From positions 1,984,001-2,048,000 of the forward strand of contig NC_016599.1 in the NCBI RefSeq assembly GCF_000236705.1: DNA of 64,000 bases, written 5' to 3'. The notes under the pieces are model-generated. The model was not told where the DNA came from and ran no database searches. It was given only the letters and a program-made list of their open reading frames with translations. The position numbers and the translations under genes are program-made. Of the stretch, positions 35,086 through 57,200 are shown one piece after another (position 1 is the first letter of the stretch; the number at the start of each line of letters is the position of its first letter). Source of the stretch: Owenweeksia hongkongensis DSM 17368 (GTDB taxonomy: Bacteria > Bacteroidota > Bacteroidia > Flavobacteriales > Schleiferiaceae).

Positions 35086-35100
35086 CCAAAATTTAAATAA

Positions 35101-35667
35101 ATGGCTTCAACTTCAGATATCCGTAATGGATTGTGCATCCAGTTTAACAATGCACCATGGCAGATTATAGAATTCTTACATGTAAAGCCTGGTAAAGGCC
35201 CTGCTTTTGTAAGAACAAAATTGAAAAATCTTGATAACGGTAAAGTATTAGATCACACCTTTCCAAGTGGTTTTAAGCTAGATGTAATCCGTATCGAAAA
35301 CAGAACTTATCAGTTTTTATATGATGATCCATCTGGGCATCACTTTATGAATATGGATGATTACAATCAAATCACTATTCCTAAAGAACTTATCAACGCA
35401 CCTCAGTTCTTGAAAGAAGGAATGGAGTGCAATGTACTTTTTCATGCGGATGAAGACAGACCAATGGTTTGCGAATTGCCGCAAAAAGTAGCTCTAGAAA
35501 TAACCTACACCGAGCCTGGAATAAAAGGTGATACTGCCACCAACACACTTAAGCCTGCCACAGTAGAAGGTGGTGCCGAAGTACGTGTTCCTTTATTTAT
35601 TGGCGAAGGCGAAAAGATTTGGATTGATACTGCCTCTGGCGACTATAAAGAACGCTACAAAGACTAG
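35101..35667 (+). CDS. efp: Translation elongation factor P
   Basis: EF-P relieves ribosome stalling at polyproline stretches. The 188-residue protein has the KOW-like first domain with K32 in the HVKPGKGPAFVRTKL loop, the residue modified in many bacteria, then the two OB-like domains ending PLFIGEGEKIWIDTASGDY. The modifying enzyme is not visible in the window. It sits between the ABC ATPase and a second LpxD-like gene, with a promoter box 15 nt upstream. Confidence 0.97.
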   Translation: MASTSDIRNGLCIQFNNAPWQIIEFLHVKPGKGPAFVRTKLKNLDNGKVLDHTFPSGFKLDVIRIENRTYQFLYDDPSGHHFMNMDDYNQITIPKELINAPQFLKEGMECNVLFHADEDRPMVCELPQKVALEITYTEPGIKGDTATNTLKPATVEGGAEVRVPLFIGEGEKIWIDTASGDYKERYKD

Positions 35668-35672
35668 GTAAA

Positions 35673-36614: not shown

Positions 36615-36635
36615 TTTTCTTTGATTTATAAAATG

Positions 36636-36673
36636 AAAAATCCCCGCTACAGAATTTTGCAGCGGGGATTTTT
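36636..36673. terminator. Strong terminator after the lipid A operon
   Basis: AAAAATCCCCGCT (36636-36648) pairs perfectly with AGCGGGGATTTTT (36661-36673) around a 12-nt loop. With T-rich ends on both strands, it can end both the lipid A operon and the convergent SusD-like gene. Confidence 0.9.
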
Positions 36674-36697
36674 AGTTATAGGAATTTGCCATTCATA

Positions 36698-38173: not shown

Positions 38174-38198
38174 ATTCTATACTTTAATTCAGTTTTCC

Positions 38199-41100
38199 TT
38201 AAAAGTTAAATGATACGTTGAACCCAAAAGACCTGATACTAGGTAACGCTGCTCCTTCTAGGCCTTGTGCGTTGGTAGCGGAATTTGCCAAAGCAGTTGG
38301 ATCTAGATGTGGTATATTACTATGAATCAACCACAGGTTCCGTCCAAATAGACCAAAAGTTACTTTCTGAATTTTCCAGTCTTCAATTATTTTTTCAGGT
38401 AGAGCGTAACTTAGAGTTACCTCCCTAAGATAAACGTAACCTGCATCATATACGTCTGCTTCACCTATGGTGTAACCTCCATTATAAAAGAAATGATCCT
38501 GCGCACTAATATTAGTCTGATTCGTACGACCACCTACATCTTCGGCAGTACCGTCCCCATCAAGGTCAAGCATGGTACCTGGAGCATACACACCTTCTAC
38601 AACAGTTCCATTTTCTCTTATTCCATCGGCTGCAGTTTCTTCTAGCACCCCTGTATACTTACCCCACATATTGGTAGTTGAGAAAACATCACCCCCAACC
38701 TGAAAATCAATCAAAGCTGATAAGGACACTCCTTTATAACTAAAACTGTTTGTTACACCCCCAGTAAAATCAGGAAGTACATCGCCAATAACCTCTTGCT
38801 GATCACTCCTCACGTAAGCACCTGTAGCATCCACCAGCCTATTTCCAGCTGCATCGGTTTTATACGCATATCCATAAATGCTTCCATAAGACTCTCCTTC
38901 CACTGCTTGAACAGAAACAGCGAAGGGTGCTTGAGCAATTAGGTAATTCGTTATGTGTATCCCCTGCTCCTCATCTTCATATAGTTTGATGATTTTATTT
39001 TCATTCTTAGCAAAGTTTACTGCCATTGTCCACTGGAAATCTCCTCTATTGGCTGGTTTAATGATGTCTCCGGCCAACATGATTTCTATTCCACTATTCT
39101 CCATCTCCCCCGCATTAATAAGCTTTCTTAAGCTACCAGTACTTGCAGAAATAGGTAACTCTAGAATCTGGTTGTATGATCTTGAATGGTAATAAGTAAA
39201 ATCTAAACGCAACCTATTCTTAAAAAAACGGATGTCCGTTCCAACTTCCCATTGACTAGTCTCTTCAGCTAGAAGATCTGGGTTGGGAAGTAAATCTTTG
39301 TTAGAAACACTCGCATTTCCAGCTATAGATGGATTTATATCATAAGATTTATAATACTGATAAGGATCAGTATCATTACCTACAGCAGCCCAGCCAGCCC
39401 TTAACTTACCGAAGGATAATACATTATTACCTCTAAATGCTTCCAGCTCGGTAAATACAAAGGATCCAGACACGGAAGGATAATCAAACATTCTATTTTC
39501 CTCAGGTAAAGCTGAAGACCAATCAATACGATAAGTGAGATCTACATAAAGCATATTTTTATAATCCCATGAGGTACTTGCAAATACACTACTCACCCTT
39601 TTAAATTCAGTATATTGATCTGTCACAGCCGGAGCCACAGAGTTTGATAAATTGTAAAAATCTAGGGCATTCAATCCCCCTTCAGTGGTTCCAATAAAGC
39701 GTCTGTATGTATTATTTCTAATATTACCACCTAGAATGGCTACTAATCCAAAATCATCATTGAAGCGAGTATTGTAATTTATCTTTCCCTCGTAGTTTGA
39801 CTCCTGAACATATCGCGTTGCGAGTTCATACATTGGCACTTCTTGAGAGTTAATAGCTATTCTCTCCTCTCTCACATCATTGTAAAAATCTGTCATCGCT
39901 GTCCCATCAACTGATAACTTATCGTTAAAAGCATAATTCAGGTTTATGTTTCCAAAAACTCTTTCTCGAGTGTCATTCTGATAGTTTTCATATCTGGTCC
40001 AATAGGGGTTATCAGTATATTGAGGGTCACCATTTGAATAACTTATTCTGTTCCATGTTCTTTGATCACCGTTCTCCAGTTTATAATCTTCCATCTTTTC
40101 ATCAGACCATTGCCTTTGTCCCCATTGGTTGAATTGCTGCATTACATTATTTGCATCGTATCCAGTACCAGGTCTACCAGTGGCATTCGTTTTAGCGTAA
40201 TTCACGCCAATACGTGTAGAGAGTTTATCGGTAAGTTTTGTAGAACCATTAAAAGAGAGGTTATTCCTTTTGATTTCGCTATTTGGAAACACCCCAGTTT
40301 GGTTTAAATTATTGTAGCTCAAGCGAAAGCTACTCCTTTCCGTGGCATTGTATAAAGCAATACTGTTATTAAAGGTATAACCCGTATTAAAGAAATTTCG
40401 AACATTATCAGGATGAGCTTCCCAAGGTGCCGTTTTTCCGTAGTCAGGATGGCCTTCATCCCATGACCACCAGTGCCGCACCTGTTGTCCGTTTAATCTT
40501 GGACCCCATGATTCGTCTACCGCATATTGAGCTAGCAAATCATAAGAATCCGATACTCCGCCATTCACCCCTTGGTATGTTCCAGCACCTCTACTTCCAA
40601 ATGCAGATGGGTCATCTGAATACCATAACGTATCAAAGCCAAATCCACCTCCATATTCATTTTGATAATCTGGGAGGATGTAAACTTTCTCCATAGAAAC
40701 ACCAAACTTATAAGACACGCCTATTCCCTTACCTTTTCCTGCAGACTTTCCTTTTTTGGTAGTGACTAGAATTACCCCATTAGCTCCTCTAGAGCCGTAA
40801 AGCGCTGTTGCAGCAGCTCCTTTAAGCACCGACATGCTTTCAATATCATCCGGATTTATATCCTGAATAGCATTTCCGTAATCATACCCCCCAGCACCTC
40901 TTTCTTGATCAGTAGAGGTAAAATTAGAGTTATCTAATGGGATACCATCCAGTACGAAGAGCGGTTGATTGTCATTATTATTAATTGAAGTTGCCCCTCG
41001 AATAAGGATTCGTGATGAACCACCCATAGACCCTGTGGCACTATTTACTTGAACCCCCGCCAATCTCCCAGATAAGGAGTTGGCAATATTTACCTCTCGA

Positions 41101-41501
41101 GCTTCAGATAGCTCCTCACCTCCTACTTCCTGCACAGAGTATCCTACAGATTTTTTATCTCTTGAAATACCCAAAGCTGTAATCACCACTTCATCAAGCT
41201 TCTCGGTAGCTTCCTCCATTTGTACATTTATGAAGTCTTCAGAACCAACAATCACTTCCTTAGTTTCCTGGCCGATGGCCTGAAATACGAGAATCGGGTT
41301 CTCTGACGTAAGGGTGATTGTGAATTTTCCATCGAAGTCGGTACTAACTCCATTTCGGGTACCTTTCTCGAGTACTGCAACCCCTGGAAGGGTTTCTCCG
41401 TCTGCGGACTTAATAACACCTGAGACGGTTCGCGTTTGGGCATAGCCCAAGTGTACGCATAGCGCTAGCAATAATGCCAGCAGCGCTGCCTTATTCTTCA
41501 T
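38199..41501 (-). CDS. SusC/RagA-family TonB-linked outer-membrane channel
   Basis: A 1100-residue TonB-dependent transporter. The order is: signal peptide (1-21, ending HLGYAQ), a carboxypeptidase-regulatory-like domain (about 23-105, TRTVSGVIKSADGETLPGVA), a TonB-dependent plug domain (about 110-240, LSGRLAGVQVNS, then RGATSINNNDNQPLFVLDGIPL), and a long barrel ending FGFNVSFNF. It pairs with SusD downstream to import an oligosaccharide, peptide or similar nutrient; the substrate is unknown. No dedicated sensor or anti-sigma pair is adjacent, so regulation is unclear. Confidence 0.95.
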   Translation of the reverse strand: MKNKAALLALLLALCVHLGYAQTRTVSGVIKSADGETLPGVAVLEKGTRNGVSTDFDGKFTITLTSENPILVFQAIGQETKEVIVGSEDFINVQMEEATEKLDEVVITALGISRDKKSVGYSVQEVGGEELSEAREVNIANSLSGRLAGVQVNSATGSMGGSSRILIRGATSINNNDNQPLFVLDGIPLDNSNFTSTDQERGAGGYDYGNAIQDINPDDIESMSVLKGAAATALYGSRGANGVILVTTKKGKSAGKGKGIGVSYKFGVSMEKVYILPDYQNEYGGGFGFDTLWYSDDPSAFGSRGAGTYQGVNGGVSDSYDLLAQYAVDESWGPRLNGQQVRHWWSWDEGHPDYGKTAPWEAHPDNVRNFFNTGYTFNNSIALYNATERSSFRLSYNNLNQTGVFPNSEIKRNNLSFNGSTKLTDKLSTRIGVNYAKTNATGRPGTGYDANNVMQQFNQWGQRQWSDEKMEDYKLENGDQRTWNRISYSNGDPQYTDNPYWTRYENYQNDTRERVFGNINLNYAFNDKLSVDGTAMTDFYNDVREERIAINSQEVPMYELATRYVQESNYEGKINYNTRFNDDFGLVAILGGNIRNNTYRRFIGTTEGGLNALDFYNLSNSVAPAVTDQYTEFKRVSSVFASTSWDYKNMLYVDLTYRIDWSSALPEENRMFDYPSVSGSFVFTELEAFRGNNVLSFGKLRAGWAAVGNDTDPYQYYKSYDINPSIAGNASVSNKDLLPNPDLLAEETSQWEVGTDIRFFKNRLRLDFTYYHSRSYNQILELPISASTGSLRKLINAGEMENSGIEIMLAGDIIKPANRGDFQWTMAVNFAKNENKIIKLYEDEEQGIHITNYLIAQAPFAVSVQAVEGESYGSIYGYAYKTDAAGNRLVDATGAYVRSDQQEVIGDVLPDFTGGVTNSFSYKGVSLSALIDFQVGGDVFSTTNMWGKYTGVLEETAADGIRENGTVVEGVYAPGTMLDLDGDGTAEDVGGRTNQTNISAQDHFFYNGGYTIGEADVYDAGYVYLREVTLSYALPEKIIEDWKIQKVTFGLFGRNLWLIHSNIPHLDPTALANSATNAQGLEGAALPSIRSFGFNVSFNF

Positions 41502-41670
41502 GTAGGTAAAATTTTGTGTTAAACGTTACCCTAAATTGAGAAGAATATTCGACATAATCAAGTAGTTAACAAAGATCGGTTAAGGGAATGTTAAGTTTGT
41601 TATGCGTGAATAAAGTCCTATATCTCGCTTCATGACTGACTTAAAACAGCCTTTTTAAAGTCGAAAAAAG

Positions 41671-43098
41671 TTATAACTTTTCTTCGCTAAAATATTGATC
41701 AAGAACAACCAAAAGGGCAGAAAAACCCCATACAGGACATGCAGCTTTGTCCATTTCTAGAAAACTATTTAGAAAACCATGAGTCCAATAAGTTATTAAA
41801 CCCATTAAAGTAGCCATGGCTATTATTTTCAATTCCCGGGTAGGCATTTTGTAATAAACCTTTACTCCTGTAACTATACTTATTGCTACTATCACAAGCA
41901 CACTTAGGGCGCCTATAAAGCCAGACTCAGCAAGCGGTCCGATATATTCACTATGGGCATTTCCCATATCTCCGGCATTGGTACTAATTATCGTTTTTTC
42001 ATAAGGTTTTTGATAAGGGGCATAAAGAAACATGTAAGTTCCTGGACCATGACCCAGCCACGGTCGTTCTTCAAACATCCTAAGAGCTGATTTCCACCTA
42101 TTCACCCTTTCCATATTGGATGCATCAGTAGACACGTTTGAAATAGACTCTACATGCTCGGTAAGATTATCACTGCTCACCTGATCATTTTTTTCAAACT
42201 TTTGCATAATGTCTCCCCACATGTACCAAACTCCTCCTAATACTACCAAGGTCATTGCCACCAGCGTACTTTTTCTCACCTTGAGCAAAACCAGCACCAT
42301 CACTCCTAAAGCCAAAATAAGGCTTAGCCATGCTGCTCTGGTAAATGACAATATAACCCCCACAAACAGAATCAAGAATATAATGCCCGCTACTACACGT
42401 AAATTCAAATTTTGCTTCAGCAGGAATGCAAATGCAAATGCTATAGGAACATACATTGCTAACACCGCTCCGTAGCTGGTATGTTCTTTAAAAAATGGAA
42501 ACATAACCCATGTAGAAGTATCTTTAGTGAATCCATGCTGCCCGTGGATATAAAGAGTATAAATAACTACCATACTCAGCGGAATCATATACAGCCAAAA
42601 AAAATAGCGAATGTTTTTATACTTTTTAAAAAGCTGGCTCATCAAAAAATAGAAGACCGATATAAACCATAACCTTGATAGAAACACCTTAAAACTTACG
42701 AACGGCATCTGACTGGAAAAACTCGTGAAGAAAATCCAGAAGAGATAAAATAGAATGGCAATTGTAAGGGGGTGCCTAATTATTTTGGTATCAAAACCTC
42801 CTTCGTAAAGTAGCTTAAAAAAGAATAGAAGCATCACTCCGAAAGTGATGGGCTCAGTAGGCAAGGTAAAGCCCACATGTAAATCGGGGTTATAATAAAA
42901 GATAGAGAGAGGAGTGGCAAACACCAAAAATAGCAACACCTTATCGAGGGCCAAAACTATGGCTGCAATCAAGGCCAAGCCAAACGGCAAAAGCAAACCC
43001 CAAAAATTTTCGGTAGCTATAAATACCACGTTCAGGAGGCTAAAAAGCACTCCTATTGTTATAACGGTTTTACTGTTGGGCTCCCAAGTGGGTCTCAC
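41671..43098 (-). CDS. O-antigen ligase/polymerase-family membrane protein
   Basis: A 475-residue polytopic membrane protein with about ten to twelve hydrophobic segments and the large periplasmic loop typical of Wzy/WaaL proteins, containing the WKSALRMFEERPWLGHGPGT segment near 335, followed by NAHSEYIGPLAESGFIG. This fits O-antigen ligase-type proteins, which polymerise or attach polysaccharide chains. It overlaps the chain-length determinant gene by 4 nt and is the last gene of a three-gene set. Confidence 0.88.
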   Translation of the reverse strand: MRPTWEPNSKTVITIGVLFSLLNVVFIATENFWGLLLPFGLALIAAIVLALDKVLLFLVFATPLSIFYYNPDLHVGFTLPTEPITFGVMLLFFFKLLYEGGFDTKIIRHPLTIAILFYLFWIFFTSFSSQMPFVSFKVFLSRLWFISVFYFLMSQLFKKYKNIRYFFWLYMIPLSMVVIYTLYIHGQHGFTKDTSTWVMFPFFKEHTSYGAVLAMYVPIAFAFAFLLKQNLNLRVVAGIIFLILFVGVILSFTRAAWLSLILALGVMVLVLLKVRKSTLVAMTLVVLGGVWYMWGDIMQKFEKNDQVSSDNLTEHVESISNVSTDASNMERVNRWKSALRMFEERPWLGHGPGTYMFLYAPYQKPYEKTIISTNAGDMGNAHSEYIGPLAESGFIGALSVLVIVAISIVTGVKVYYKMPTRELKIIAMATLMGLITYWTHGFLNSFLEMDKAACPVWGFSALLVVLDQYFSEEKL

Positions 43099-44132
43099 GA
43101 TTTGCCTCTCTTTACCTCAGTGCGAATCGTATCCAAGATAAGGATTGCGATAAGAGTAACTGTAAATGCACCTATCGCCCCTAATGCCACAATCAGCCAC
43201 CGTGTAGGGTACGATTTTTTCTCTGCGGGATATGCAGAGTTTACCTTAAATGATGCTGGCAGACTTTCTTGCACATCCACCTTAGCCTGATCATACTTCG
43301 TTTTCAGCTTTACCTGTTCTTCTTTTAAAAACTGAAGCTCATCACGAAGAGAAACATAAGTACCACCATATTTTGCCAAGGTATCGAGCTTTTCCTCAAT
43401 AGCCTTCACAGCCGTGCTATTTGCCCCACTCTCAATAATGGCAGTTGCCAGCTGCTCATTAAAAACTGAAGATTGAGTTTCATAATCATGAACACCTTTA
43501 TAACGCAATTGAGTAAGAGAATCTTCGTAGGAAACAACCTCGGCTTTGAGATTATTATACTCTTGAGAGATAATCGCTAAACCCTTTTCTGCACGATCTT
43601 TTTGAATACGGTTTTTGACCTCATCCAGTAATACACTAATATCATTAGCGATCATAGCCGCTGTATCAGGGTCGGTATCCAATACATTTATTTCTACTGA
43701 CATAAACTCTGTACGCCTGTATGAAATATTGCTTTCAAATGTTTTGTAAAGCTCCGTTTTGGTATACTTTCCAGAATCAATTTGGTAGTGCTTCATCAAG
43801 TTATACTTATTGATAATACCATCACGTATTTCATCCGAATTTAAAAGCTGTAAAAGCTGTTCAGCTTGCTCCTCTTCACCAAACTCTAAAATATCCTGAC
43901 CACGGCTCGAAAACTGCTGAGGCAAAAGTGCTTTGGAAAGTGAGTTTGTAGTAGTAGGAAATACAGTTACCGTGGACTTATACTTTGGCTTTATAAAAAG
44001 TGGACTACTAAAAATTCCGGCAAGAACTGCAGCAACCAATGTAACAATGATCAAAGGCTTACGCCACTTATAAATATATACTATCAAATTTGATGAGTCA
44101 AAAACTCTATCCTCATTAGGATTTGATTCCAT
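43095..44132 (-). CDS. Polysaccharide chain-length determinant (Wzz-like)
   Basis: A chain-length regulator of about 345 residues, anchored by two membrane helices (near 28-48 and 310-335) with a long periplasmic coiled coil between, including QKDRAEKGLAIISQEYNNLK and LEEKLDTL-like helices, and a proline-rich turn (SAYPAEKKSYPTRW) before the second helix. It controls polymer length together with the Wzy protein encoded downstream, with which it overlaps. The frame opens at a TTG at 44138, but the ATG at 44132 (MESNPNEDRVF) is the better start. Confidence 0.87.
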   Translation of the reverse strand: MESNPNEDRVFDSSNLIVYIYKWRKPLIIVTLVAAVLAGIFSSPLFIKPKYKSTVTVFPTTTNSLSKALLPQQFSSRGQDILEFGEEEQAEQLLQLLNSDEIRDGIINKYNLMKHYQIDSGKYTKTELYKTFESNISYRRTEFMSVEINVLDTDPDTAAMIANDISVLLDEVKNRIQKDRAEKGLAIISQEYNNLKAEVVSYEDSLTQLRYKGVHDYETQSSVFNEQLATAIIESGANSTAVKAIEEKLDTLAKYGGTYVSLRDELQFLKEEQVKLKTKYDQAKVDVQESLPASFKVNSAYPAEKKSYPTRWLIVALGAIGAFTVTLIAILILDTIRTEVKRGKS

Positions 44133-44182
44133 GGGCAATATTTAGGTTTTGGCAAAAATAGAAAAACCGCCCACTAAGCGGC

Positions 44183-45622
44183 TCACCTGAAACGGCTTTG
44201 CATTAATTCTATTGCGGCCTTTAAGTTGAAAAGCCCCAAAGGTAATGCTAACAGCCATATTACGAATGCATTTAGGGGCAAATAAACCCACCACAACAGA
44301 GATATATTACTAAGCAAAAAGGGAACGGCAATAGCCAAGCCCGTGAATGCCAAAAGCCGCATCCAATACATCATCTCAAATCGGATTTTCACTAAACGAA
44401 GAGAAAGCCATAGTTGTATTCCAGCAGTAGCAAACTGTGTAACCACTGTAGCCCAAGCTGCGCCAATAGCGCCATATTTATTTATAAAAATAAAGTTGAG
44501 AATAATGTTGAGCCCAAAACCTGACATCGCCACAATATTCAGCGTGCGGATATCTCCGCGTGCCGTAAGCATTGTTCCGAAAACGTAGGTAGAACCGAAG
44601 GCGATACTACTCAATATTAAAATCTTAAAAACATTTGTAGACTTCAACACATGATCTACGTACAGAAAATTCATAATTCCTTCTGCGCTGGCGGTAGCGG
44701 CTATTACCACCCCCATCGTTCCAATAAAAATTAGGCTAAAAGCCAATTTGGAAAGTTTGGTAACGTCCTCCTTGTTGCTAAACATTTTTGCAAAAATGGG
44801 CAGCAGCAAAACACCCATCAGATAACTAACCTGATTTACCACATCCAGCAAACGAAAGGCTTGTGCATAAATACCATTCTCAAATGCACCAGAAATTTGC
44901 TCAATCATAATATTATCTACACGTGTGTAGAGCGCCATGAGTAAAATAAGCACTGCATACGGCAAGCTGTTTTTCAGGTCAACCAAATAAGATGAAAAGT
45001 TGATTTGCAATTTGAAACTCCCCGCTTTTTTTAATACCAAAACAAAACCAATAAGCGCAGTAAGCAAATAGCTACCCAACTGGGCCAAAGCAAAATCCTC
45101 AACAGTAAAATCACGTGTCATTACTCCGCCAAAAAGCAATATACCGCAGGTAGCAATCATCAAAACCTTGTCGAGAATGCTCATCAAAGAATCAGCTTTA
45201 AAAAGATGAAGACCCGAAAGGTGTGAGCGCAGGAACAGAATGAAAGACGAAATAAACTGATTGATAGACAAAATCAGAAGCAGATAAAACGCTTGAGATG
45301 CGTACTTGAGAAAATAGCCAACAACCAGTGCAACCAAAATGTAAACAAAACCTAAAAAGAATTTAAGCCCAGTAAGCTTCGAGAAATTTCGGGCTACCTC
45401 ACCGGGATTTTGTGCTATGGCTCGGTTATTATAATGTGTTAGCCCAAGGTCGAGCAGAATGTTGAACACAAAAGTGAAGCTAAAAATAGCGGCATAAAGC
45501 CCATAAGCCTCTGCCCCAACCCTATTTTGAACGGTGAGGTCGATGCCAAAAATCCACAGCGGCTTTACTAGTAGATTGAGCAACAGCAATAAAAGAAGAC
45601 TACTTACAAACTTCTTCTGCAT
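44183..45622 (-). CDS. Polysaccharide flippase, Wzx/MATE-like
   Basis: A 479-residue membrane protein with about 12 to 14 helices and flippase-type features: VQNRVGAEAYGLYAAIF near 29, YNNRAIAQNPGEVARNF near 64, and a NKYGAIGAAWATVVTQ segment near 385. Such proteins move undecaprenyl-linked sugar units across the inner membrane. It heads a flippase, chain-length, polymerase gene set on the minus strand and diverges from a glycosyltransferase gene, consistent with an exported polysaccharide. Its symbol is left blank because the sugar system is unknown. Confidence 0.9.
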   Translation of the reverse strand: MQKKFVSSLLLLLLLNLLVKPLWIFGIDLTVQNRVGAEAYGLYAAIFSFTFVFNILLDLGLTHYNNRAIAQNPGEVARNFSKLTGLKFFLGFVYILVALVVGYFLKYASQAFYLLLILSINQFISSFILFLRSHLSGLHLFKADSLMSILDKVLMIATCGILLFGGVMTRDFTVEDFALAQLGSYLLTALIGFVLVLKKAGSFKLQINFSSYLVDLKNSLPYAVLILLMALYTRVDNIMIEQISGAFENGIYAQAFRLLDVVNQVSYLMGVLLLPIFAKMFSNKEDVTKLSKLAFSLIFIGTMGVVIAATASAEGIMNFLYVDHVLKSTNVFKILILSSIAFGSTYVFGTMLTARGDIRTLNIVAMSGFGLNIILNFIFINKYGAIGAAWATVVTQFATAGIQLWLSLRLVKIRFEMMYWMRLLAFTGLAIAVPFLLSNISLLWWVYLPLNAFVIWLLALPLGLFNLKAAIELMQSRFR

Positions 45623-45662
45623 AAGGTTTTAAAAACGGCCAAAGGTAAAGTTTTATTGACGC

Positions 45663-45670
45663 TATATTTG
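45663..45670 (+). promoter_or_regulatory. -7 promoter box abutting the glycosyltransferase start
   Basis: TATATTTG matches TAnnTTTG and ends 4 nt before the GTG at 45675, predicting a leaderless mRNA. Confidence 0.5.
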
Positions 45671-45674
45671 AAGC

Positions 45675-46796
45675 GTGAAAATAGCTGTCAACACCCGTTT
45701 CCTCCTTCCCAACAAACTGGAAGGCATAGGTTGGTTTACCTTTGAAATATTCAAACGACTCACTCAAAATCATCCTGAGGTAGAGTGGCTATTTCTATTT
45801 GACCGACAATATAAGGAGCACTTTATATTTTCTGACAACATCACGCCAATTGTGGTTTCTCCGCAGGCGCGTCATCCTATTTTGTGGCACATTTGGTATG
45901 AATACAGCTTGCCACGAATATTTAAAAAGCATAAACCCGACCTTTTCATTTCGCCCGATGGATACCTTTCGCTAAAGAGTAATGTGAAGAGTATTTCGGT
46001 GATTCATGATTTGAATTTTGAGCATAACCCGGAGAATATCCCGAAGCTAGCGGGGAAATATTACCAAAAGTATTTTCCAAAATATGCGCACAGGGCTGAC
46101 CGTGTGGCCACCGTTTCACAATATTCCAAAGACGACATCAGCACGCTATATGAAGTATCTCCAAATAAAATCGATTTGGTGTATAACGGCTGTGGAGACT
46201 TCTTCTTTCCGCTTAAAGCGGAGGAAATAAAAACAGTTCGTGCAGAAATAAGCGAGGGAAAACCCTACTTCATTTTTGTGGGCGCACTAAACCCGAGAAA
46301 AAATATAACCGGCATGTTGGCGGCTTTTGCTAAATACCGGGAAGGTGGTGGACACAACAAGTTTGTGATTGTTGGCGAAAAAATGTTTTGGAGCGATGAC
46401 ATTGCTAACGCTTATGAAAATCACCCCTTTCGGGAAGACATCATTTTTACTGGAAGACTGGAAGGCTCAGGGCTCAACAAAGTTTTAGCCGCGTCAGCTG
46501 CTTTGTTATTCGTGTCCAATTTTGAAGGATTTGGGATTCCGATTGTAGAGGCTTTTAAGTGTGAAGTTCCGGTAGTAACCTCCACCACCACCTCAATGCC
46601 CGAAGTGGCCGGAGATGCTGCCCTACTGTGTGACCCCAGCGACACACAGGCTATCACTAATGCCATGCACGAAGTGGATAAACCCGAGGTAAGAGCGGAC
46701 CTCATTGCCAAAGGAAAATTGCGGTCCACACTTTTTACTTGGGAACGCTCAGCAGAAATGATGTGGGACTGCATCACCCAAACGATGAATCAATAA
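45675..46796 (+). CDS. GT4-like glycosyltransferase
   Basis: A 373-residue GT-B glycosyltransferase of the family 1/4 type. It begins MKIAVNTRFLLPNKLEGIGWFT (GTG start), and shows IFVGALNPRKNITGML near 198 and the sugar-nucleotide site SNFEGFGIPIVEAFKCEVPV near 278 with the E-x7-E-like pair in family position. The sugar is unknown, but the flippase, chain-length and polymerase genes divergently upstream point to polysaccharide synthesis. Its stop is immediately followed by the rnhB ATG. Confidence 0.92.
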   Translation: MKIAVNTRFLLPNKLEGIGWFTFEIFKRLTQNHPEVEWLFLFDRQYKEHFIFSDNITPIVVSPQARHPILWHIWYEYSLPRIFKKHKPDLFISPDGYLSLKSNVKSISVIHDLNFEHNPENIPKLAGKYYQKYFPKYAHRADRVATVSQYSKDDISTLYEVSPNKIDLVYNGCGDFFFPLKAEEIKTVRAEISEGKPYFIFVGALNPRKNITGMLAAFAKYREGGGHNKFVIVGEKMFWSDDIANAYENHPFREDIIFTGRLEGSGLNKVLAASAALLFVSNFEGFGIPIVEAFKCEVPVVTSTTTSMPEVAGDAALLCDPSDTQAITNAMHEVDKPEVRADLIAKGKLRSTLFTWERSAEMMWDCITQTMNQ

Positions 46797-47402
46797 ATGC
46801 CACGACTACTAAACTGCCATACTAAAGGATTAATAGAAGCTGGCTGTGATGAAGCCGGACGAGGATGCTTGGCTGGGCCCGTAACTGCCGCTGCGGTTAT
46901 TTTGCCACCCAATTTCCGTCACAAGCTGCTGAATGATTCCAAAAAAATGACAGAAGCCCACCGCGAAGAACTTCGATCTATTATTGAGGAAAAAGCTTTG
47001 GCCTGGGCTGTGGCTTCAGTAACTCACGAAGAAATTGACAAAATCAATATTCTAAATGCTTCCTTCCTGGCGATGCACCGCGCGGTAGAACAATTAAAGA
47101 TCGTTCCGCAGGCTTTACTGATTGATGGCAACCGTTTTAACGCCTATCCGAATATTGCCCATCATTGTATTATTAAAGGTGATGGTAAGTTTAAAAGCAT
47201 TGCTGCAGCCTCTGTTTTAGCCAAAACCCACCGTGATGAATACATGGCTAAGTTGGCTGAAGAATTTCCACAATACGGCTGGAAAAAAAATAAAGGCTAC
47301 CCTACGATGGACCACCGAGCTGCCATCGAAAAATATGGAACCACGCCTTATCATCGTCAGAGCTTTAGGTTGTTGGCAAGGCAGGTGAAGTTGGAATTTT
47401 AG
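46797..47402 (+). CDS. rnhB: Ribonuclease HII
   Basis: RNase HII cuts RNA-DNA hybrids and removes single ribonucleotides from DNA. The 201-residue protein has the catalytic D18/E19 in [16 protein letters not shown], a third acidic residue in LLIDGNR near 109, [19 protein letters not shown] near 142 and the C-terminal [11 protein letters not shown]. All key residues are present and the gene is intact. It starts directly after the glycosyltransferase stop. A diverged copy of its last 75 bp recurs at 48239-48313. Confidence 0.97.
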
Positions 47403-47541
47403 GGTAAGAGTTGAAGCTTTGTGTGTTAAGGTTTTTTTTTTTGCGGAAATTAGATAGCGATAATTACTTGACTTTCCCTTATAACCATCTAACCCCTTTA
47501 ACAGCACAACGCAAATTTGCACTTAACTCTAAGTCAATTAA

Positions 47542-48135
47542 ATGAAACTAAAGTTTATCACCATTTTGTGCTTTTCCTATTCAATGGCAATTGCACAATC
47601 TTATGAACTAAACTATCGCGACTGGGATACAGCATCTCCCTATGAGTACTGGTTAACATTAAACTACTCTGAAGAGCCGAACATCGTTACCCTAACTGAT
47701 AGTTTAGAACAGGATGGTTACTTAACTATTGAAGGAACTATAAGCGACTATAGAGACTCAGCCCTACAAACTTTAATTTGGAGACTTGACCCAAGAGACT
47801 CTAGCCAAATGGAACCGTACGTACCAGATGAAAGCGGATATTTTAAATTGAATTTTGATCTAGGTACAATCCTTCTTCAATTTACACTTCAAGGTTCTTT
47901 TAAAACCCAATACCTTTTGATTTCAGCAAATGTGGCAAAAAAAATCTCCTACGAGTTAAAACTTGGCAGAAGCCAACCCTTTGAGCAATATTTAATCCAT
48001 TCCAAAAGAATCTTAACTGTTGATGAGATAGAGTCTACCGTAGATTGCATTAAGGAAAATTTCCTTTTTAACCAGAATGAAACATGGAACTGTGCCGAAG
48101 GAAAAGACTTTTATATTGGAATGTCAGGAGGGTGA
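47542..48135 (+). CDS. Secreted hypothetical protein, possibly frame-disturbed
   Basis: A 197-residue frame with a signal peptide (1-18, ending SMAIAQ) and an acidic, beta-rich body (SYELNYRDWDTASPYEYWL, GYLTIEGTISDYRDSAL). I recognise no family. Its stop at 48135 truncates a coding-like run that continues in the next forward frame to a stop at 48238 (KEKTFILECQEGEPP, then SKKEIEVCIGVIRETLVD), so a frameshift may have shortened the protein by about 33 residues; an independent 53-residue ORF (ATG 48077) is the alternative. It lies between rnhB and a diverged second rnhB tail, indicating an inserted segment. There is no clear promoter. Confidence 0.6.
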   Translation: MKLKFITILCFSYSMAIAQSYELNYRDWDTASPYEYWLTLNYSEEPNIVTLTDSLEQDGYLTIEGTISDYRDSALQTLIWRLDPRDSSQMEPYVPDESGYFKLNFDLGTILLQFTLQGSFKTQYLLISANVAKKISYELKLGRSQPFEQYLIHSKRILTVDEIESTVDCIKENFLFNQNETWNCAEGKDFYIGMSGG

Positions 48136-48238
48136 GCCACCCATTCATGAATCACAAATCATCAAGACTCTCGGTTCGATTTCGAAAAAAGAAATTGAAG
48201 TATGCATAGGTGTTATTCGAGAAACGCTGGTTGATTAG

Positions 48239-48313
48239 GAAAAATAGGAAACCATAGCTTATCAACTTCAAGGTTTTAGCTTGTTGGCAACTCAAATAAA
48301 ACTGAGTTTGTAG
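48239..48313 (+). pseudogene. Diverged second copy of the rnhB 3' end
   Basis: This 75-bp segment aligns with the last 75 bp of rnhB (47328-47402). In the aligned frame it reads ETIAYQLQGFSLLATQIKLS before the stop, beside [20 protein letters not shown] in rnhB; by hand count 10 of 21 residues and about two thirds of the bases agree. Two compensating one-base gaps lie near its start. It begins directly after the TAG that closes the shifted frame at 48238 and contains the -33 element of the next gene. It is a remnant, not a gene. Confidence 0.7.
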
Positions 48314-48336
48314 CCGTTAAAATTGCTTTATTTTTG
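48307..48336 (+). promoter_or_regulatory. Promoter for the lipoprotein gene at 48357
   Basis: A -33 TTTG (48307-48310) and a -7 TATTTTTG (48329-48336) are 18 nt apart, the best full Bacteroidota promoter in the window. The -33 part lies in the rnhB remnant. Confidence 0.65.
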
Positions 48337-48356
48337 TCCAAAATTAGGCCACCACT

Positions 48357-50984
48357 ATGAAGCTTTTCCAATACTGGATTCTCACTCTAACTTCAACTCT
48401 ACTCCTATTTAGCTCCTGCAAAAAAGATGCGGCCACCAGCGCTGATTTGTATTCTGCCGTTCCTAAATCTTCCGTTTTAGTTTTGGAAAGCCGCAGCATT
48501 GGTGAGGCTTTGAATAGCATAAGCCAAACCAGCATGTACAGCCAGATAGACAGCTTGCCGCCTATCCTTGCTTTTGCAGAAGAATTGAAATCCCTCAAAG
48601 GAAATTTTGACACGGATAGTGTAACAGACTTTTTAAAAAAGCGACCTGTAATAATGGCCATTGCACTAAGTGGTGCCGAAAAATATGGAGCACTTTTTAT
48701 CGCTCTAGGTAATAAGGATTTTGAAAAGTCAATAGGTAAAAGATTGAGTTCAGTTTATAAGGTTTCGCAAAAAACCTACAGCGAAGCTGAAGTGTATCAC
48801 TTTTATAAAGAAGATAAAAGCAAGAATTACTACGTTTCCTCTTACCGCAACCTACTCCTTTTTAGCACCAGCAGCTTCTTGCTCGAAGAAGGTATTCGTC
48901 AAGTAAATAGCGAGTTTAACATTAAGCAAAACCTACAATTTCAAAAGCTGTACAATACTAGCAACAAAAAGGACCTTGCGAATCTTTATATCAACCTAAA
49001 AGAGCTTCCTGAATTTTTAAAAACCAAACTCCCACTCGGAAATCAGCAGTTTATAAGTCGGATGGGTAGCTGGGCCGAGTTGGATATTCAGGCCTACAAC
49101 AAAGAGCTTTTGATGAGTGGTCTTATCCTATTTCCAGAAAATGAGCCCTATTTCTTACAGTCTTTCCAAAAGGTGAAAGCTCGTGAAACAGAAGGGCAGC
49201 AAATTGTTCCTGCCGCCAGCGGGCTTTGGGTATCGCACACCTTTGCCAATGCAGAGCAGTATTATCGCAATTATTTAGCATATCTGGAAAGTGCAGGACG
49301 CTTACGCAAGCATGAGCAACTTTTAGAGAAATTAGATTTTGACCACAACAAACATCTACTCGAGTGGGTGGATTCCGAAATGGGGATTTTCACCACCACA
49401 GGTGAAGGTGGCCGTATTAATTATGTAGCCTATTTTAAACACCGCGATGAAGATGATGCCCGTGAAGCGTTGGATTCTTTAGCCACTGATTTTATAGAAG
49501 GCTACCGTGGAATTATCATCAAAAAACTGAAAGCTGAAAATGCACTACCCCGCTTTTACGGACCTATATTCACCGACTTTCATTACCCCTACTTTATTGT
49601 GAGCAATGGTTTTGCGCTTTTTGCGGAAGACCTTAGCAGCATGAAGGGAATCATAAATGATATGGTGGATGGTAAAACTTTAGGTGCTGATGAAGAGTTC
49701 AAAAACTTTAGCGCCAGCCTGCCTTCTGAGTCACACATTAAAATAATTGCTTCCAGTCCCGGGTTTTTAAATTACGCTTCTACAAGTTTAGAGGGAGGTG
49801 ATGCTAAAATTCTGGAAAAGAATTTTGACAAGCTGAGCAACTTCCGCTGGGCTGCCTTACAGATCAATGTAGATGACGATGCCGCCCTAACCAACTTTTA
49901 CATGCTGCAATCTACCCAGCGGAAAGAGCGAGTAGCTCGCTTGTGGAATGTAGAGTTGCAGAGTGATGCAGCCAATACTCCTCAGTTTTTGAAAAATTAC
50001 ACCAATGCCAAATATGATGTGGCTGTTCAGGATAAAGATTACAGGCTTTACCTTATAGATTATAGCGGCAAGTTGCTTTGGACTAAAAATCTGGATGGCC
50101 CAATTATGGGCAACATCACTCAAATAGATATTTACAAAAACAACAAACTGCAGATGGTGCTCAACACACGCGAAACTCTTTACGTGATTGACCGCCTCGG
50201 CCGTGATGTTGAGAATTTTCCTGTAAAGTTAAAAGAGCCAGCTACCGCTCCTGTGGGAGTTTTTAATTATGATATGGCGCGTAATTACCGCCTGGTGGTG
50301 CCCTGCGGCAAAAATTTAAAAAACTACGGTGTAGATGGCAAAGAAGTAAAAGGCTGGAACTTTAAAGCTTCAAAGCATGAATTAATTACCCAACCTCAAC
50401 ATTTTACGGTAAGTAAAAAAGATGTGATAGTGGTATTAAATGATGGTGGCCAATTGTTACAACTAAACCGAAGAGGTGAGCAGCGATTTGAGCCGGTAGA
50501 GGGTTTACCCAAATTGCAAATACCTTTCTTCCTTAAAGAGAGAGAATCATTGGCAAAATCGGAAATGCTGGCCAACGGCCCGGATGGAAAATTATATTCT
50601 ATAATACCAGGTGGAACTGCTGACAATCTATATCTGGATGAAGAAAACCCCGCTGACTACTTCATCTACTTTGACGAAAAATATGTGTTTAGTCATGATG
50701 AAAAACTCATCATAAAAAGTGACAACCAGCCTTGGTCTGCTGAGCTAGATGGCGATATCTCAACACGCCCGAAAGTGATGATTTTTGGAAATGAGTTTTA
50801 TGCTGCAGCCTTTAGCAAAAGTGCTGACGAAATACGTCTCTTCAATAAAAAAGGTGAACTGGTAGAAGGTTTCCCTGTATATGCTCAAGGGCCATTCGAC
50901 ATGGGATCCCTCAAGCAAGATGGCGCCATCAATATTGTAACTTATACCGAGGATGGCACATTGGTGTGCTATCGGGTGAATTAA
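48357..50984 (+). CDS. Large lipoprotein, DUF3352-like N-terminus
   Basis: An 875-residue lipoprotein with a lipobox at Cys21 (LLFSSC). The N-terminal ~500 residues resemble DUF3352-like proteins (YSAVPKSSVLVLESRSIGEAL, LVISLPEE-like SLPSESHIKI). The C-terminal part (about 540-875) has repeated short beta-blade-like units such as YRLYLIDYSGKLLWTKNLDG and VDGKEVKGWNFK, suggesting a propeller. Its function is unknown; the lipid anchor and lack of catalytic motifs suggest an envelope structural or binding role. It has its own promoter. Confidence 0.75.
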   Translation: MKLFQYWILTLTSTLLLFSSCKKDAATSADLYSAVPKSSVLVLESRSIGEALNSISQTSMYSQIDSLPPILAFAEELKSLKGNFDTDSVTDFLKKRPVIMAIALSGAEKYGALFIALGNKDFEKSIGKRLSSVYKVSQKTYSEAEVYHFYKEDKSKNYYVSSYRNLLLFSTSSFLLEEGIRQVNSEFNIKQNLQFQKLYNTSNKKDLANLYINLKELPEFLKTKLPLGNQQFISRMGSWAELDIQAYNKELLMSGLILFPENEPYFLQSFQKVKARETEGQQIVPAASGLWVSHTFANAEQYYRNYLAYLESAGRLRKHEQLLEKLDFDHNKHLLEWVDSEMGIFTTTGEGGRINYVAYFKHRDEDDAREALDSLATDFIEGYRGIIIKKLKAENALPRFYGPIFTDFHYPYFIVSNGFALFAEDLSSMKGIINDMVDGKTLGADEEFKNFSASLPSESHIKIIASSPGFLNYASTSLEGGDAKILEKNFDKLSNFRWAALQINVDDDAALTNFYMLQSTQRKERVARLWNVELQSDAANTPQFLKNYTNAKYDVAVQDKDYRLYLIDYSGKLLWTKNLDGPIMGNITQIDIYKNNKLQMVLNTRETLYVIDRLGRDVENFPVKLKEPATAPVGVFNYDMARNYRLVVPCGKNLKNYGVDGKEVKGWNFKASKHELITQPQHFTVSKKDVIVVLNDGGQLLQLNRRGEQRFEPVEGLPKLQIPFFLKERESLAKSEMLANGPDGKLYSIIPGGTADNLYLDEENPADYFIYFDEKYVFSHDEKLIIKSDNQPWSAELDGDISTRPKVMIFGNEFYAAAFSKSADEIRLFNKKGELVEGFPVYAQGPFDMGSLKQDGAINIVTYTEDGTLVCYRVN

Positions 50985-51236
50985 GTTTTCGCAGCACTCT
51001 ATTTTCTATTTCTGGAATTTATTTTTTCCGGATTTACTTTATCTAGAATTATTCCTGTATTAAACCTATAGTTCCCATCATAGGAATACTTTTCCTACAA
51101 ACAAATACACCAACATGGTGATAAGCAGATGTTTTACGTATAATTAATTCGTTCGGCATAGTATTTCCCTGTAATCGCAATCGTACACTCTTGCACTTTG
51201 CATGAACTGTATTTTTAATAACCAAAACTAATTACT

Positions 51237-54200
51237 ATGCAAAACATTACCTCTGGCTCTGCGCTTTGGCGCAAGAGCAGCCTGTCCTTATTCTGCTCTG
51301 TATTTTTTGCAGCAGGATCTCACTCGGCCAACGCAGCCTCCTATTATGTAAATGATAATAACACCGCAGGAGACATCTACACAACTGCAGTAGGTAGCAA
51401 TTTAAACAGCGGAACTATGGCCTCGCCATATTTAAGCATTCAAAGTGCGATTGACGCAGCCTCATCTGGAGACACTATTTATGTAGATGCAGGAACTTAT
51501 AATGAGAATGTTTCTGTAGACAAATCACTCACTTTACTGGGCGCAGGCAGTGGAGCTACCATAATTGATGGCGACAATAACGGTTCTGGTTTAGGTACTA
51601 TTTTCCTTCCAACCGGTGGAAACAATATTCAAATTGGTGCAATGAGCCAAGGATTTCATATAATTGGAATTGACGGTCCTGCAGGGCTAGAAAAAGCCGC
51701 AATATATCTGCAAGGCACCCAATCCAACATCACCATTATTGATAATGAGATTGAAGCAAGAGGTGACGCAGGCTTGATGGGCGAACACAACGCATCAAAT
51801 AACAATATTGTTATTGATAACAACCTAATATCTGGTCAAACCTTTAATGGTGCAAACCCTGCAGGTGTAGGGTCTGGAGCTCAATTCACCTTGCTAAATG
51901 TACCTCGCCAAGCGGTGGTATTTGGTGGTGGCGGTGGAACTACCAATACCATGAACTTCACGTTCACCAACAATGTGATTTCTACGGTAACTGGTGGCCA
52001 AAGTACTACTGACAATTCAGGAAACCCAATTTCACCAACCGATCAAGGAAATATGCTTGTAACGCTTGACCTAGTAGGGACCAACACCATTAGTGGAAAC
52101 ACTTTTAATGGAACAACCGTTTCATGGTATGCAGCCTTAAGAACTCGAGGTACTGGTTATACTATCGACAACAATATCTTTAACGGAAATTACCTTGTAG
52201 GGATGGCCACCGGCTCAAATGCCGTAGACGCTTCACTAAACTATTGGGGAGATGCCTCAGGTCCTAACAATCCTGTAAACAATGCTTGTGGAGCGGGGAA
52301 ATATGTTCCAAATAATGTAACTCTTGCCCCATTCTACACAGACGCAAGTCTTACTACGACCTCTAATGGAGCTCCTTCTGTAAGCAACATTACACAAAAC
52401 ACATCTTTCTGCAGTATTCAAGCCGCTGTAGATGCTGCTAACGCTACAGATACAATTGTAGCTTCAGCCGGCACTTACGATGAAGTTTTACTGATAGACA
52501 AGGCACTAACACTGTTTGGCCCCAATGATAACATCAGCGCGGTAAATGGAACACGAGTTTCAGAAGCAATTCTTCTACAACGAGTTAATATTAGCGCAAC
52601 CACTGATGTTACCATAAGTGGTTTTGAGTTTTTCGAAGTACCAGCCACGAGTACCTGGACGATATATATTTATGGTAATTCGAACAACTTCACATTCGAG
52701 AACAACCGTTTTATTGATAATGATAAAGACGCCATCCGTTCAGGAATAAGCTCAGCCACCGGAAATGTTACGGTAAAAGGTAATTTGATTGATGGACTCA
52801 CAAATACGCTTTCATCAGGTATTTTCTTAGGAGGTATATATGGCACTTCTCTAATTGCTGACAACAAGATAGACCTCGCTTACAATGGAACCCCTACGGG
52901 ATACAGTGGAATACAAACCCCTTCTGCTGATGGCTTAACCATCTCTGGAAACGAAATTTCAAATACCACGAATCAAGGTTTACAACTTGCAGGAACTTGC
53001 GGAAACGTTACTATCGAAAACAATTCCATTTCTAATACAAACACAGGCAATGGATCCGACAAAGGGGCTATAAGATTGTACGGCACAGCCTTTACTGGTC
53101 CGATTACCATTCAAAACAACAACCTCACCAATTCTTACAATGGTGTAGCTGTAAAAAATGGTGAAGACCTTACAGGACAAAACATTACCATCACGAATAA
53201 CAACTTGACCGGCAATAGCAATAAAGCCATTTATAACGGTGCATCAACTGGCGGAGTAAACGCCCCTTGTAACTGGTACGGAACTACCGATGATGCAGCC
53301 ATTCAGGCTCTTTTAGTTGGACTTGTAAACTACACTCCATTTTTGAACAATGGAACTGATAATGATATGGCTCAAGGATTCCAGCCTGTTCCAGGGGCTT
53401 GTGCAGTTAACCTAACTGGACTTTATGTAAATGACAATAACATCGCTGGTGACATTTACACCACAGCTGTGGGAAATGACGCAAACAACGGCTCAAGTTC
53501 AGCTCCGTATTTAACCATTCAGGCAGCAGTAAACGCAGCCTCATCTGGCGATACTATTTATGTAGATGCTGGGGATTATACACTAGCAGCTTTGACAATG
53601 ACTAAAAGTTTGACCATTGTAGGTAGTAATTCGGGTAACCATGCGGCCTCAGGTTCTGGAAATATTCCTGCGGGAAGGGTTACTGAATCAGTAGTTACTA
53701 TGACAGGAAGCCTACTTATTAATACAGATAATATCACAATTGATGGTTTGCATATTCGCTCGGCTGGCGTACGGGTAATCAGAAATACTGGTGTAGCTGC
53801 TGATAATTTCATTTTACAAAATTGTTTAATTGAGAACACGGCTAGTTCCGGACTTGAAATGTTACATTTTATAGGTACGGCTACTCGGGAAAATTGGATA
53901 ATTAGAAACAATAGGTTCTCAGGAGTGCAAGGTGGCACTGGTGCTATTTATTTCAATGGAAGTGCCTCGGGACTTAAAAATATTTTAGTTGATGGCAATG
54001 ATTTTATGGGTAGTAACGCAGCAGCCATTTTTGGAGGTGCCTCAGATTTAACAATTAGTGGGAACTATTTTGCGGCTACCAATTTACCGACCATTAATAT
54101 GAATGACCTTGATAACCCGACTATTGAAAACAACACTATAAATGTTAATGGATTTGGTTTACAGCTTACCACTATAAATGGTGGAGTAATCAGAAGTAAT

Positions 54201-57200
54201 ACCTTTACGGGCATAAGTGCTTATGACTTTAGCGGTACTCTCTATATGCGTGGTATTGATGTTTTTGGTACTAGCTTCAGTGGTCCGAATTCTGCGGGTC
54301 TGGTAATTGAAAATAATATATTTCACGATTTTACGGCTGCGGTTATTAATACAAATGATCAATATCGTGGTATTCATTTCAGACAAGGTGTGGAGGACAT
54401 AAGCGTTCAGAATAATACATTCACAAATAGTCATACGGCTTTAGGTATAGTTTCAGCAACCCCTGCAGTAGAGGGCATTACTTTAACAGAGAATGACTTG
54501 TCGGGAGCCGTGTTTGGGGTATTAAATGGATCTTCAAACGCAGTTGCTTCCACTTGTGACTGGTGGGGTTCGACAAGCTCAGCAACAATTGCTTCAAAAA
54601 ACACAGGTACTGTAACTTTTGAACCATACTTAACGAATGGAACTGATAACTCAGGGGCAATAGGCTTCCAGCCAGCACCTGGTGCTTGTACAGTTAATTT
54701 AACTGCTCTTTATGTAAATGACAACAACACAACTGGTGACATTTTCACTACTGCAGTAGGAAATGATGCTAATAGCGGAACAAGCTTAGCACCATATTTA
54801 ACAATCCAAGCTGCTATAAATGCCGCGGATGCAGGTGACACTATATATGTAGATGCAGGTGCTTACACCGAACAGGTAGAGATAACAAAAGATGTGGAAA
54901 TAATTGGTGCCGGAATAGGTGTTACTACCATTTTGGGTTCAGCCAATATGCCTTTGTTCTTTACTACATCAGGTGACAATTATCCAATTGTATATGTACA
55001 TGATGCAGACAGTGTAAACATCAAAGACCTCACTGTGGATGGTGACGGTAAAGGAAATAGCAATTACCGTTATCAAGGAGTAGGCTACAGCAACGCTGGT
55101 GGTACGTTAGATAATATTGAAATCACTAGTGTTATCGAAACTCCATTTAATGGAAACCAACATGGGATAGGCCTATTTGCCGATGCTTCTAGCGGTACAG
55201 CTCGCACACTTACTCTTAAAAACTCTATGATAAGAGATTGCCAAAAAAATGCTATATCTCTTTCTGGAGCTGACCTTACTGGCTATGTAAATGACAATAT
55301 GATAACCGGAGCCGGTGCTATTGGAACTCCATTGCCTGCGCAAAACGGAATTCAATTTTATGGCACCGCTGGTGGCGAAATCAAAAACAACGTAGTGAAG
55401 GGATTTTGGTATACTCCAAATAACTGGACGGCTACAGGAATGTTACTTTATGCAAACGCAGGAAGTATTGAAGTTGATGGTAACAATCTTGACAGCAATG
55501 ATGCACACATTTATGATTTCAATGGAGATGCTACTATTACCAATAATGATATAAAAGATGGTAATTATGGGGTAATTGTTCAGTCAAGTGGCACAAATGC
55601 TACTGCCACTGTTTCTGGAAACTCCGTGATGAATGTAGTTACGGGCATTGGTGTATATGAAGCTGGAGGTTCTACCGCCTCTGCTACCATCAATGAAAAT
55701 AGTATTACCAGCATTTCAGACAAAGCCATTGAGAGTGATGCTGCCGCCACATTAGATGCTACCTGCAACTGGTATGGAACAACCGATGATGCTTCAATTC
55801 AGGCTCTTTTAGATGGCTTTTTAACTTACAGCCCATTCTTAAACAATGGAACTGACAATGATGTAGCTCAAGGGTTTCAGCCGGTTCCAGGGTCATGTGT
55901 TGCACCTTCTTCTCAAGCGGATAGCCTACTTATCGTATCAGACGCAAGCTGGATGATGAGCACAGAGGTTAACACTGTAGATGCATATAGTTACCCTTGG
56001 CGAGGGGTTACCACTCTTCCTGACGTATCTACTTACACCCTTCCTGCAGTTGTAGGTCAGCCGTACCACTATCACTCTATTGACAGTGTTGATGGTGCTC
56101 GGGTATTGCGTGGAGACAATGGAATTAGATTTTTCAGAACTACTTTTAATCTGAATGTTGACACAGGTGTAGCTGCACAAATCATCTCACGTATGGATGA
56201 TGGAATGGAAATTTACATAAACGGACACATGATAGCACGTGAAGCTAACCGAACCACAGCAAACTTTTTAGGTCTTCCTCATAACTTAGTTCTTCTTCAA
56301 AATGGTGATCAGGACAATGGTCACAATGGTGATATGGAATTTGATATCGTGAATAATTACCGCTTGGATTCAGTAGTAGTAGCTGGAGAAAATGAGCTTA
56401 TAATTGCTCTTAGAAATGCACCACAAACTTCTGACAAAGGTGGTTTCAGTTTCCGCATGGAGCTAAAAACCGGTGAAGCTTATATGCCAGAACTTACCGG
56501 ATACTTGGTTTCTGATATAGAGTGGATGGAAAGCACAGTAACCACTCCAGGGGGAACTAGCTTTAACTGGTCTGGCGTTAGTGGTCTTCCAGCTGCAAAT
56601 ACATTCACTAAAAATGTAATGCTTGGTCAACCATATGGATATTATAGTATCGAAGAAGTACCTGGCTCATTTGCGATAAAGTCTGGTACTGATGTAACCT
56701 ACTATACCAGAAGATTTACCATTATGGATTCTGCCGATGTAAATGTGCGACTACGTTCTACATTTGATGAAAGTGTGATGATTTATGTAAATGGGGTATT
56801 GATCGCGGCAGACTATTCTACAAACTACAGTGACCGCACTCTTGCAGCCCATGATGTAGACTTTCAAGCAGGAGGTACCATAACCAACGGAAATGCCGGA
56901 GGAGACTTGTTTGACCAAGTAGAAAGTGTTGACTTTGACAACATACTTCGTAAAGGAGATAATTACGTTACTGTAGCTCTTCGCAATAAAGGTATTACTG
57001 ACAAAGGTGGCTTCTCCTTACGATTAGATTTAGACAAAGCAGGAAGCCCTGTAATCCGTAAAACCACCTCTGAAAGAAATGGGAATGAAGATAAAAAAGC
57101 AAACGACCTTCAAGTGAACTTTAATATTTATCCTAACCCAACCACAGGTAGAGTAATTATTGATCTAATTGAAAGCCCCACTGGAGACAACACAGTTACC

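Follow-up and report, generated by a model that had tools for sequence, protein, structure and literature searches.

A displaced copy of the rnhB 3' end and a small insert between rnhB and a DUF3352 gene in Owenweeksia hongkongensis

The stretch of DNA analyzed here (the window, 64,000 bp) consists of positions 1984001-2048000 of a single 4,000,057-bp contig of Owenweeksia hongkongensis. The locus of interest surrounds rnhB, the gene for ribonuclease HII, and contains the following features, in window coordinates. The sister genome mentioned here and below is designated G001.

45675-46796, + strand: glycosyltransferase gene, the upstream neighbor (Pfam Glycos_transf_1, E 2.7e-25)
46797-47402, + strand: rnhB, ribonuclease HII, intact, 201 aa (Pfam RNase_HII, E 2.9e-41; NCBIfam NF000595, over cut-off)
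47328-47402, + strand: intact rnhB 3' end, copy 1 of the repeat (repeat search and alignment)
47403-48238, no strand: insert of 836 bp, without room in 42 of 44 measurable relatives and replaced by other DNA in the sister
47542-48135, + strand: cargo gene for a putative small secreted protein of 197 aa (signal peptide and AIA-Q site read by eye)
48077-48238, + strand: 53-codon reading frame, in another frame than the cargo gene, without family match
48239-48313, + strand: displaced, decaying rnhB 3' end with a stop at codon 3 (53/75 against copy 1; same place in G001)
48307-48310, + strand: TTTG, -33-like element of the DUF3352 gene, in the last bases before the stop of the remnant
48329-48336, + strand: TATTTTTG, -7-like element (TAnnTTTG)
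48357-50984, + strand: DUF3352 gene, the downstream neighbor, 875 aa (Pfam DUF3352, E 9.2e-12)

The last 75 bp of rnhB are present again 911 bp downstream, beginning with GAAAAATA and ending with the stop codon. The two tails are identical at 53 of 75 positions without gaps, compared with 38 for the next-best place in the window on the + strand and likewise 38 for the best place on the reverse strand. Their mismatches are distributed over codon positions 1, 2 and 3 as 5, 5 and 12. In a 3.4-kb stretch this pair is the only direct repeat longer than 22 bases; the longest identical run between the tails is 10 bases, and a core repeat may be eroded. The initial annotation had described this repeat, and its coordinates and peptides proved accurate. 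It had also named beforehand a comparison with shuffled sequence, which the pair withstood: the local alignment score is 49, and 2000 mononucleotide shuffles of the second tail gave a mean of 13.1 (sd 2.05) and a maximum of 26. With these scores, and given that the sister genome has a remnant in register with this one, it is virtually inconceivable that the tails are unrelated sequences alike by chance, a notion in favor of which nothing was found. The second tail reads EK*ETIAYQLQGFSLLATQIKLSL*, and the TAG at its third codon marks it as a dead fragment. When 90 bases spanning the tail were compared with the whole 4.0-Mb genome, 10 matches came up, namely the gene itself and nine short ones (14-27 bases, E >1). 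Since the remnant is itself missing from this list, other copies equally diverged would have escaped the search as well.

The arrangement of the neighbors is common in related genomes. In 29 rnhB loci of relatives, inspected with flanks of up to 1.5 kb, DUF3352 lies downstream in 21 and a glycosyltransferase gene adjoins upstream in 22. The distance between rnhB and DUF3352 was obtained by searching one set of 88 family genomes for each of the two genes. An rnhB match was present in 81 of these and 57 were used; the 24 dropped from the count comprise 23 without a DUF3352 match and one with a cut rnhB and DUF3352 on another contig. Twelve of the 57 have rnhB and DUF3352 on separate contigs or strands (in G012, for example, DUF3352 is on another contig). 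In 42 of the 44 other family genomes in which both genes share one contig and one strand the gap is at most 145 bp, with positions entered by hand and with the DUF3352 start extrapolated in 20 of the 44 from query residue 155-169, which yields a slightly negative gap. The two exceptions have gaps of 288 and 451 bp, and in the window the gap is 954 bp. This comparison identifies 47403-48238 as extra DNA. The short gaps also bear on the position of the remnant, the stop of which is 43 bp before the DUF3352 start; in 13 relatives the corresponding distance after rnhB is 25-48 bp, so that the remnant sits where the native end of rnhB is expected. In G002, a genome of the same genus, the junction is short too, at about 104 bp.

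A second tail is absent at both wide-gap exceptions. None was found in the other inspected rnhB loci of relatives (best 29-37 of 75), two of which are cut by a contig end; in G001 the rnhB locus stops short of the remnant. A set of 80 rnhB loci from genome_contigs likewise yielded none, with a top value of 39 of 75 against 38 in the reverse-strand control; six of the 80 have fewer than 1000 bases downstream, including that of the sister, cut 477 bases after rnhB. It had been suggested that relatives without the insert and with a tail like the remnant would point to insertion, and both tails in all relatives to an old duplication. The outcome is mixed: most measurable relatives lack the insert, and the nearest relative has a remnant too, with a different cargo.

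The rnhB product of G001 is 94% identical to that of the window. The DNA of G001 tracks the window up to the rnhB stop, does not do so past it, and shows no homology to the insert found in the window. In the sister, 1478 bp of other DNA with two genes separate rnhB from the remnant. The DUF3352 gene of G001 is on a second contig, bases 3-26 of which equal the last 24 bases of the rnhB contig, and the G001 insert thus spans two contigs joined by this 24-base overlap alone. A decayed rnhB tail, in the same register as the window's, directly precedes DUF3352. It matches the intact tail of the window at 43 of 75 positions ungapped (next-best place 34) and at 47 of 77 with gaps, a value reached by 0 of 1000 shuffles. 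Against the intact tail of its own genome it matches at 38 of 75 ungapped and 45 of 80 gapped (3 of 1000 shuffles reach this), and a local alignment of the G001 rnhB with its own remnant is weak and starts farther right, its score being reached by 56 of 1000 shuffles. When placed on the window's rnhB, the G001 remnant starts at ATC(G)AAAAA, right beside the point where the remnant in the window begins. Compared with each other, the remnants are identical at 42 of 75 positions, which is a little low (simulated probability 0.07). The presence of differing elements at one site in other strains, which serves as a test for integrative elements, is found here through the G001 cargo, by way of the 24-base contig overlap.

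Identity to G001 is 86.9% over 41350-47402, 87.3% over 48282-52261 and 93.5% over 26205-36608. In all aligned 500-bp blocks between 42.5 and 51 kb it is 0.86-0.97, and across these blocks there is no step in divergence at the insert such as a recent short flanking import would leave. Elsewhere, 36609-41349, about 4.7 kb flanked by two blocks that align well, has no blastn match in the 4.7 kb that the sister has there and is another spot of replaced content. A gene for a repeat-rich, surface-type protein of 2041 aa, at 51237-57362, aligns to the sister only piecewise. In a third genome of the genus, G003 (L045, L046; C50 end, C220 start), the assembly breaks at the rnhB tail, where the rnhB frame continues into a fragment that by eye resembles a helicase and lies at the edge of the contig; this may be a chimera or a third insert, and the locus, broken by contig ends, is outside the junction comparison.

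How old are the tails? At fourfold-degenerate sites of three genes at the locus, identity between the species is 0.60-0.69, which is enough to account for the decay of the window's remnant. In a simulation with a neutral identity of 0.65, a duplication was followed by neutral decay of the remnant. The predicted identities between intact tail and remnant, out of 75, are 56 for a duplication at the species split and 53, 50 and 44 for one that took place a quarter, a half and one full lineage length earlier. The 53 observed in the window equals the prediction for the quarter-length case; with simulated values of 56 or 53, the divergence of this pair requires no imported allele. For the G001 pair (38 of 75) the simulated probability is at most 0.001 for duplications that precede the split by no more than half a lineage length and 0.09 at one length, and at one full length, where the window pair is expected at 44, 98% of the runs give 53 or less. 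No single duplication age fits both pairs well on ungapped counts. Indels, unequal rates or a second, separate event could lie behind the misfit. Because the G001 remnant is over-diverged and aligns weakly with its own tail, two independent insertions at one place might have occurred.

A comparison with six relatives bears on which tail is the odd one. In tail peptides cut and lined up by hand (G060 is outside the six), the intact tails match at 10-15 of 23 residues and the remnants at 3-10. The remnants are thus the decaying copies, and nothing here marks the intact tail as the odd one. The initial annotation had proposed that DNA entered at the rnhB 3' end with its own copy of that end, or that an allelic exchange left the native tail behind. 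Entry at this point, with the second tail in the native position, is upheld by these data; the notion that the tails represent two alleles, one of them imported, is not required by them, since neutral decay suffices for the window pair, if less well for that of G001.

The place of entry has implications for the promoter of the DUF3352 gene. The assignments of TTTG and TAnnTTTG follow the -33/-7 consensus. Inspection of 19 relatives for TAnnTTTG after the rnhB stop located the motif at 6-20 bp in 11, at 40-118 bp in four and nowhere within 130 bp in four, the same-genus G002 being one of the last. In the window the -7-like motif is 15 bp past the remnant's stop, and G001 has retained this motif. 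With a -7-like element so near rnhB, the upstream part of the promoter should fall in the rnhB end, and the insertion point, 75 bp inside rnhB, spares the predicted promoter region. The paired -33/-7 fit at this place is confined to the window and G001; all 19 relatives lack it there, G026 having such a pair 98 bp past its rnhB, so that there is no ground to call the -33 element old. An earlier proposal was that the native tail supplies the -33 element and that the promoter may predate the insert. The similar place of the -7-like motif in 11 of the 19 relatives is in keeping with its second part. On the evidence of these motif matches, the DUF3352 promoter region looks older than the insert.

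The insert of the window contains one intact ORF of 197 aa (47542-48135), which has a signal-peptide-like start by eye. It reaches no curated cut-off (the best Pfam match, E 0.017, is below cut-off), and PHROGs, NCBIfam and PADLOC gave nothing for it at E 0.1. The expectation of a single secreted protein of no recognized family between the tails is thus borne out. The 53-codon frame at 48077-48238 stops on the base before the remnant and may be a leftover of an earlier cargo. A frameshift joining it to the 197-aa ORF was considered and dropped, because a relative of the protein in G034 terminates close to where the 197-aa ORF does and because the longer, frame-joined query gained nothing. This G034 relative is full-length with 23% identity, and another relative is in G026. 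In a first search, 2 of 99 genomes matched, the window's own among them; with a two-row profile, 16 of 395 genomes of the order matched (own included), and only G034 and G026, besides the window, did so over most of the length. In genome_contigs, 11 stretches fit a pattern for relatives of the cargo and none was confirmed. A single match of 25 residues in viral_contigs and one to a solved structure (E 0.12) were set aside.

Some weak profile matches link the cargo to the N-terminal part of TonB-dependent-receptor-like proteins (named by eye), with a similarity to their carboxypeptidase-regulatory-like N-terminus. Unlike such a domain, the cargo is a free-standing secreted protein of 197 aa, below any curated cut-off, and the carboxypeptidase-regulatory-like family is absent among its listed Pfam matches at E 1 or E 10. 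A structure model from the single sequence consists mostly of strands, at a low confidence (mean pLDDT 45.8). The cargo is likely a secreted beta-sandwich protein, perhaps of the carboxypeptidase-regulatory-like kind.

The two G001 insert genes (L034:172-312 and L034:300-877; L060 from 6754 to 7083) both have perfect 10-base inverted-repeat ends, GTTGGCATGC/GCATGCCAAC and GTTACTTGCA/TGCAAGTAAC, and between them is a foldable segment (fold z -2.8; 3 of 200 shuffles fold equally well). Integron cassettes have the core consensus GTTRRRY / RYYYAAC. The complementary ends and the foldable site between the genes resemble such cassettes, but the ends start GTTGGCA and GTTACTT and do not fit this core. 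The integron integrase TIGR02249 is over cut-off in none of the four genus genomes, three of them drafts; weaker matches are present in all four, as they are in 14 of 14 controls. A search of these four genomes for more copies of the cassette-end segment gave short matches only (E >0.07).

As a whole, these results lead us to favor, with some reservation, an insertion of foreign DNA at the rnhB 3' end that predates the separation of the two species, followed by exchange of the cargo. In an ancestor shared with the sister species, foreign DNA would have entered between about codons 177 and 178. Since the full tail stands left of the cargo, rnhB would have stayed whole, and the native last 75 bp would have ended up right of the cargo, together with the promoter region of DUF3352. 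The freed tail would then have decayed, with its last bases and the downstream -7 region best kept. Later, the cargo between the tails would have been swapped, perhaps by recombination in the flanking genes, leaving one secreted-protein gene in O. hongkongensis and two other genes in the sister. The repeat, the tight junction of relatives, the place of the remnant at the native rnhB end and the other cargo of the sister are observed; that there was one shared event, that events ran in this direction and that flanking recombination exchanged the cargo is inferred. Several observations argue against the model. The G001 insert depends on the 24-base contig overlap, the G001 remnant is more diverged (38 of 75, ungapped) than a shared duplication predicts, the agreement between the two remnants (42 of 75) is on the low side, and the G001 rnhB aligns weakly with its own remnant.

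It is possible, though rather unlikely, that a site-specific element with an integrase of the tyrosine or serine type took the rnhB 3' end for its attachment site, brought its own rnhB tail and later lost the integrase, different elements having entered in each species. A regenerated gene with a displaced fragment at the far end, as for e14 at icd, would be expected from such an element, and the two differing cargos at one place and the similar left edges of the two remnants are also consistent with it. Yet no recombinase or other mobile gene was recognized among the scanned ORFs of either insert: the search for an integrase gave no Pfam match over curated cut-off, none in NCBIfam or PADLOC at E 0.1 and one PHROG (function unknown) at E 0.06, the sister's first insert gene being scanned as its first 104 residues. 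Further, an identical run of at most 10 bases provides no clear core site, and none of the 80 genome_contigs rnhB loci, the cut-short locus of the sister included, has a second tail. We consider it improbable that the intact tail is the foreign one, a diverged donor rnhB end and its cargo having recombined at rnhB and been joined without homology inside the native tail. Such an allelic exchange would explain why the intact tails of the two species are identical at only 60 of 75 positions, compared with 472 of 531 in the gene body (Fisher P 0.037), the excess of third-position differences between the two tails of the window, and the lower identity to the sister on both sides of the insert (86.9% and 87.3%) than farther left (93.5%). 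But the dip in the tail is one of several, a neighboring gene having a 75-bp block at 58 of 75; the lowered identity extends over about 10 kb and shows no boundary at the insert; the six relatives match the intact tails better than the remnants; and decay alone can account for the divergence of the window pair. There is a similarly slim prospect that the rnhB end was duplicated locally in tandem and that the cargo was placed between the copies later. The age and divergence of the window pair fit a duplication near the species split, although this scheme requires two events, and after the intact tail there is no trace of the DUF3352 start or promoter that would be expected from a longer copy.

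Beyond the favored insertion before the split, the rnhB 3' end might be a standing site of cargo exchange in the Owenweeksia lineage, at which small elements come in close to codon 177, leave rnhB restored and preserve the next gene's promoter, which overlaps its end; we regard this broader idea as doubtful. If it were true, cargo could be swapped at no cost to either neighbor. The locus is a genuine, if fairly ordinary, record of gene gain. It offers a clean case of foreign DNA that settled in a tight two-gene junction without harm, in which the upstream gene was kept whole and the downstream gene keeps a promoter region extending into the former end of rnhB. By its decay, the displaced tail dates the event to about the split of the two species, and it marks a spot where the cargo seems to have turned over since.

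Comparison with known systems places the locus in context. In a limited set of the literature on islands, rnhB was not encountered as an insertion target, and we make no claim to a first report. Genomic islands that occupy the 3' end of trmE (SGI1) or tRNA genes (Islander) are marked at their ends by a regenerated target and a displaced fragment. The rnhB locus has both at its two ends; the insert differs from these islands in having no recognized integrase. According to the pertinent part of one account, the e14 prophage of Escherichia coli (15,204 bp) supplies the end of icd and leaves the native end as a 163-bp pseudo fragment (PMC6379469). The two cases share entry near the 3' end of a conserved gene and regeneration of the target on one side with a displaced fragment on the other. 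An unoccupied site in relatives, a mark of elements of this type, is seen for rnhB as well, in the short gaps of 42 of 44 measurable relatives. Relative to e14 as described there, the rnhB insert is only 836 bp long, has no recombinase that we recognize, and has tails that agree at only 71%. Variable spots between conserved genes, with turnover of cargo, are a further parallel. The different small cargos that the two sister species have between one pair of neighbors resemble such spots, but at rnhB the duplicated gene end additionally marks how the spot opened.
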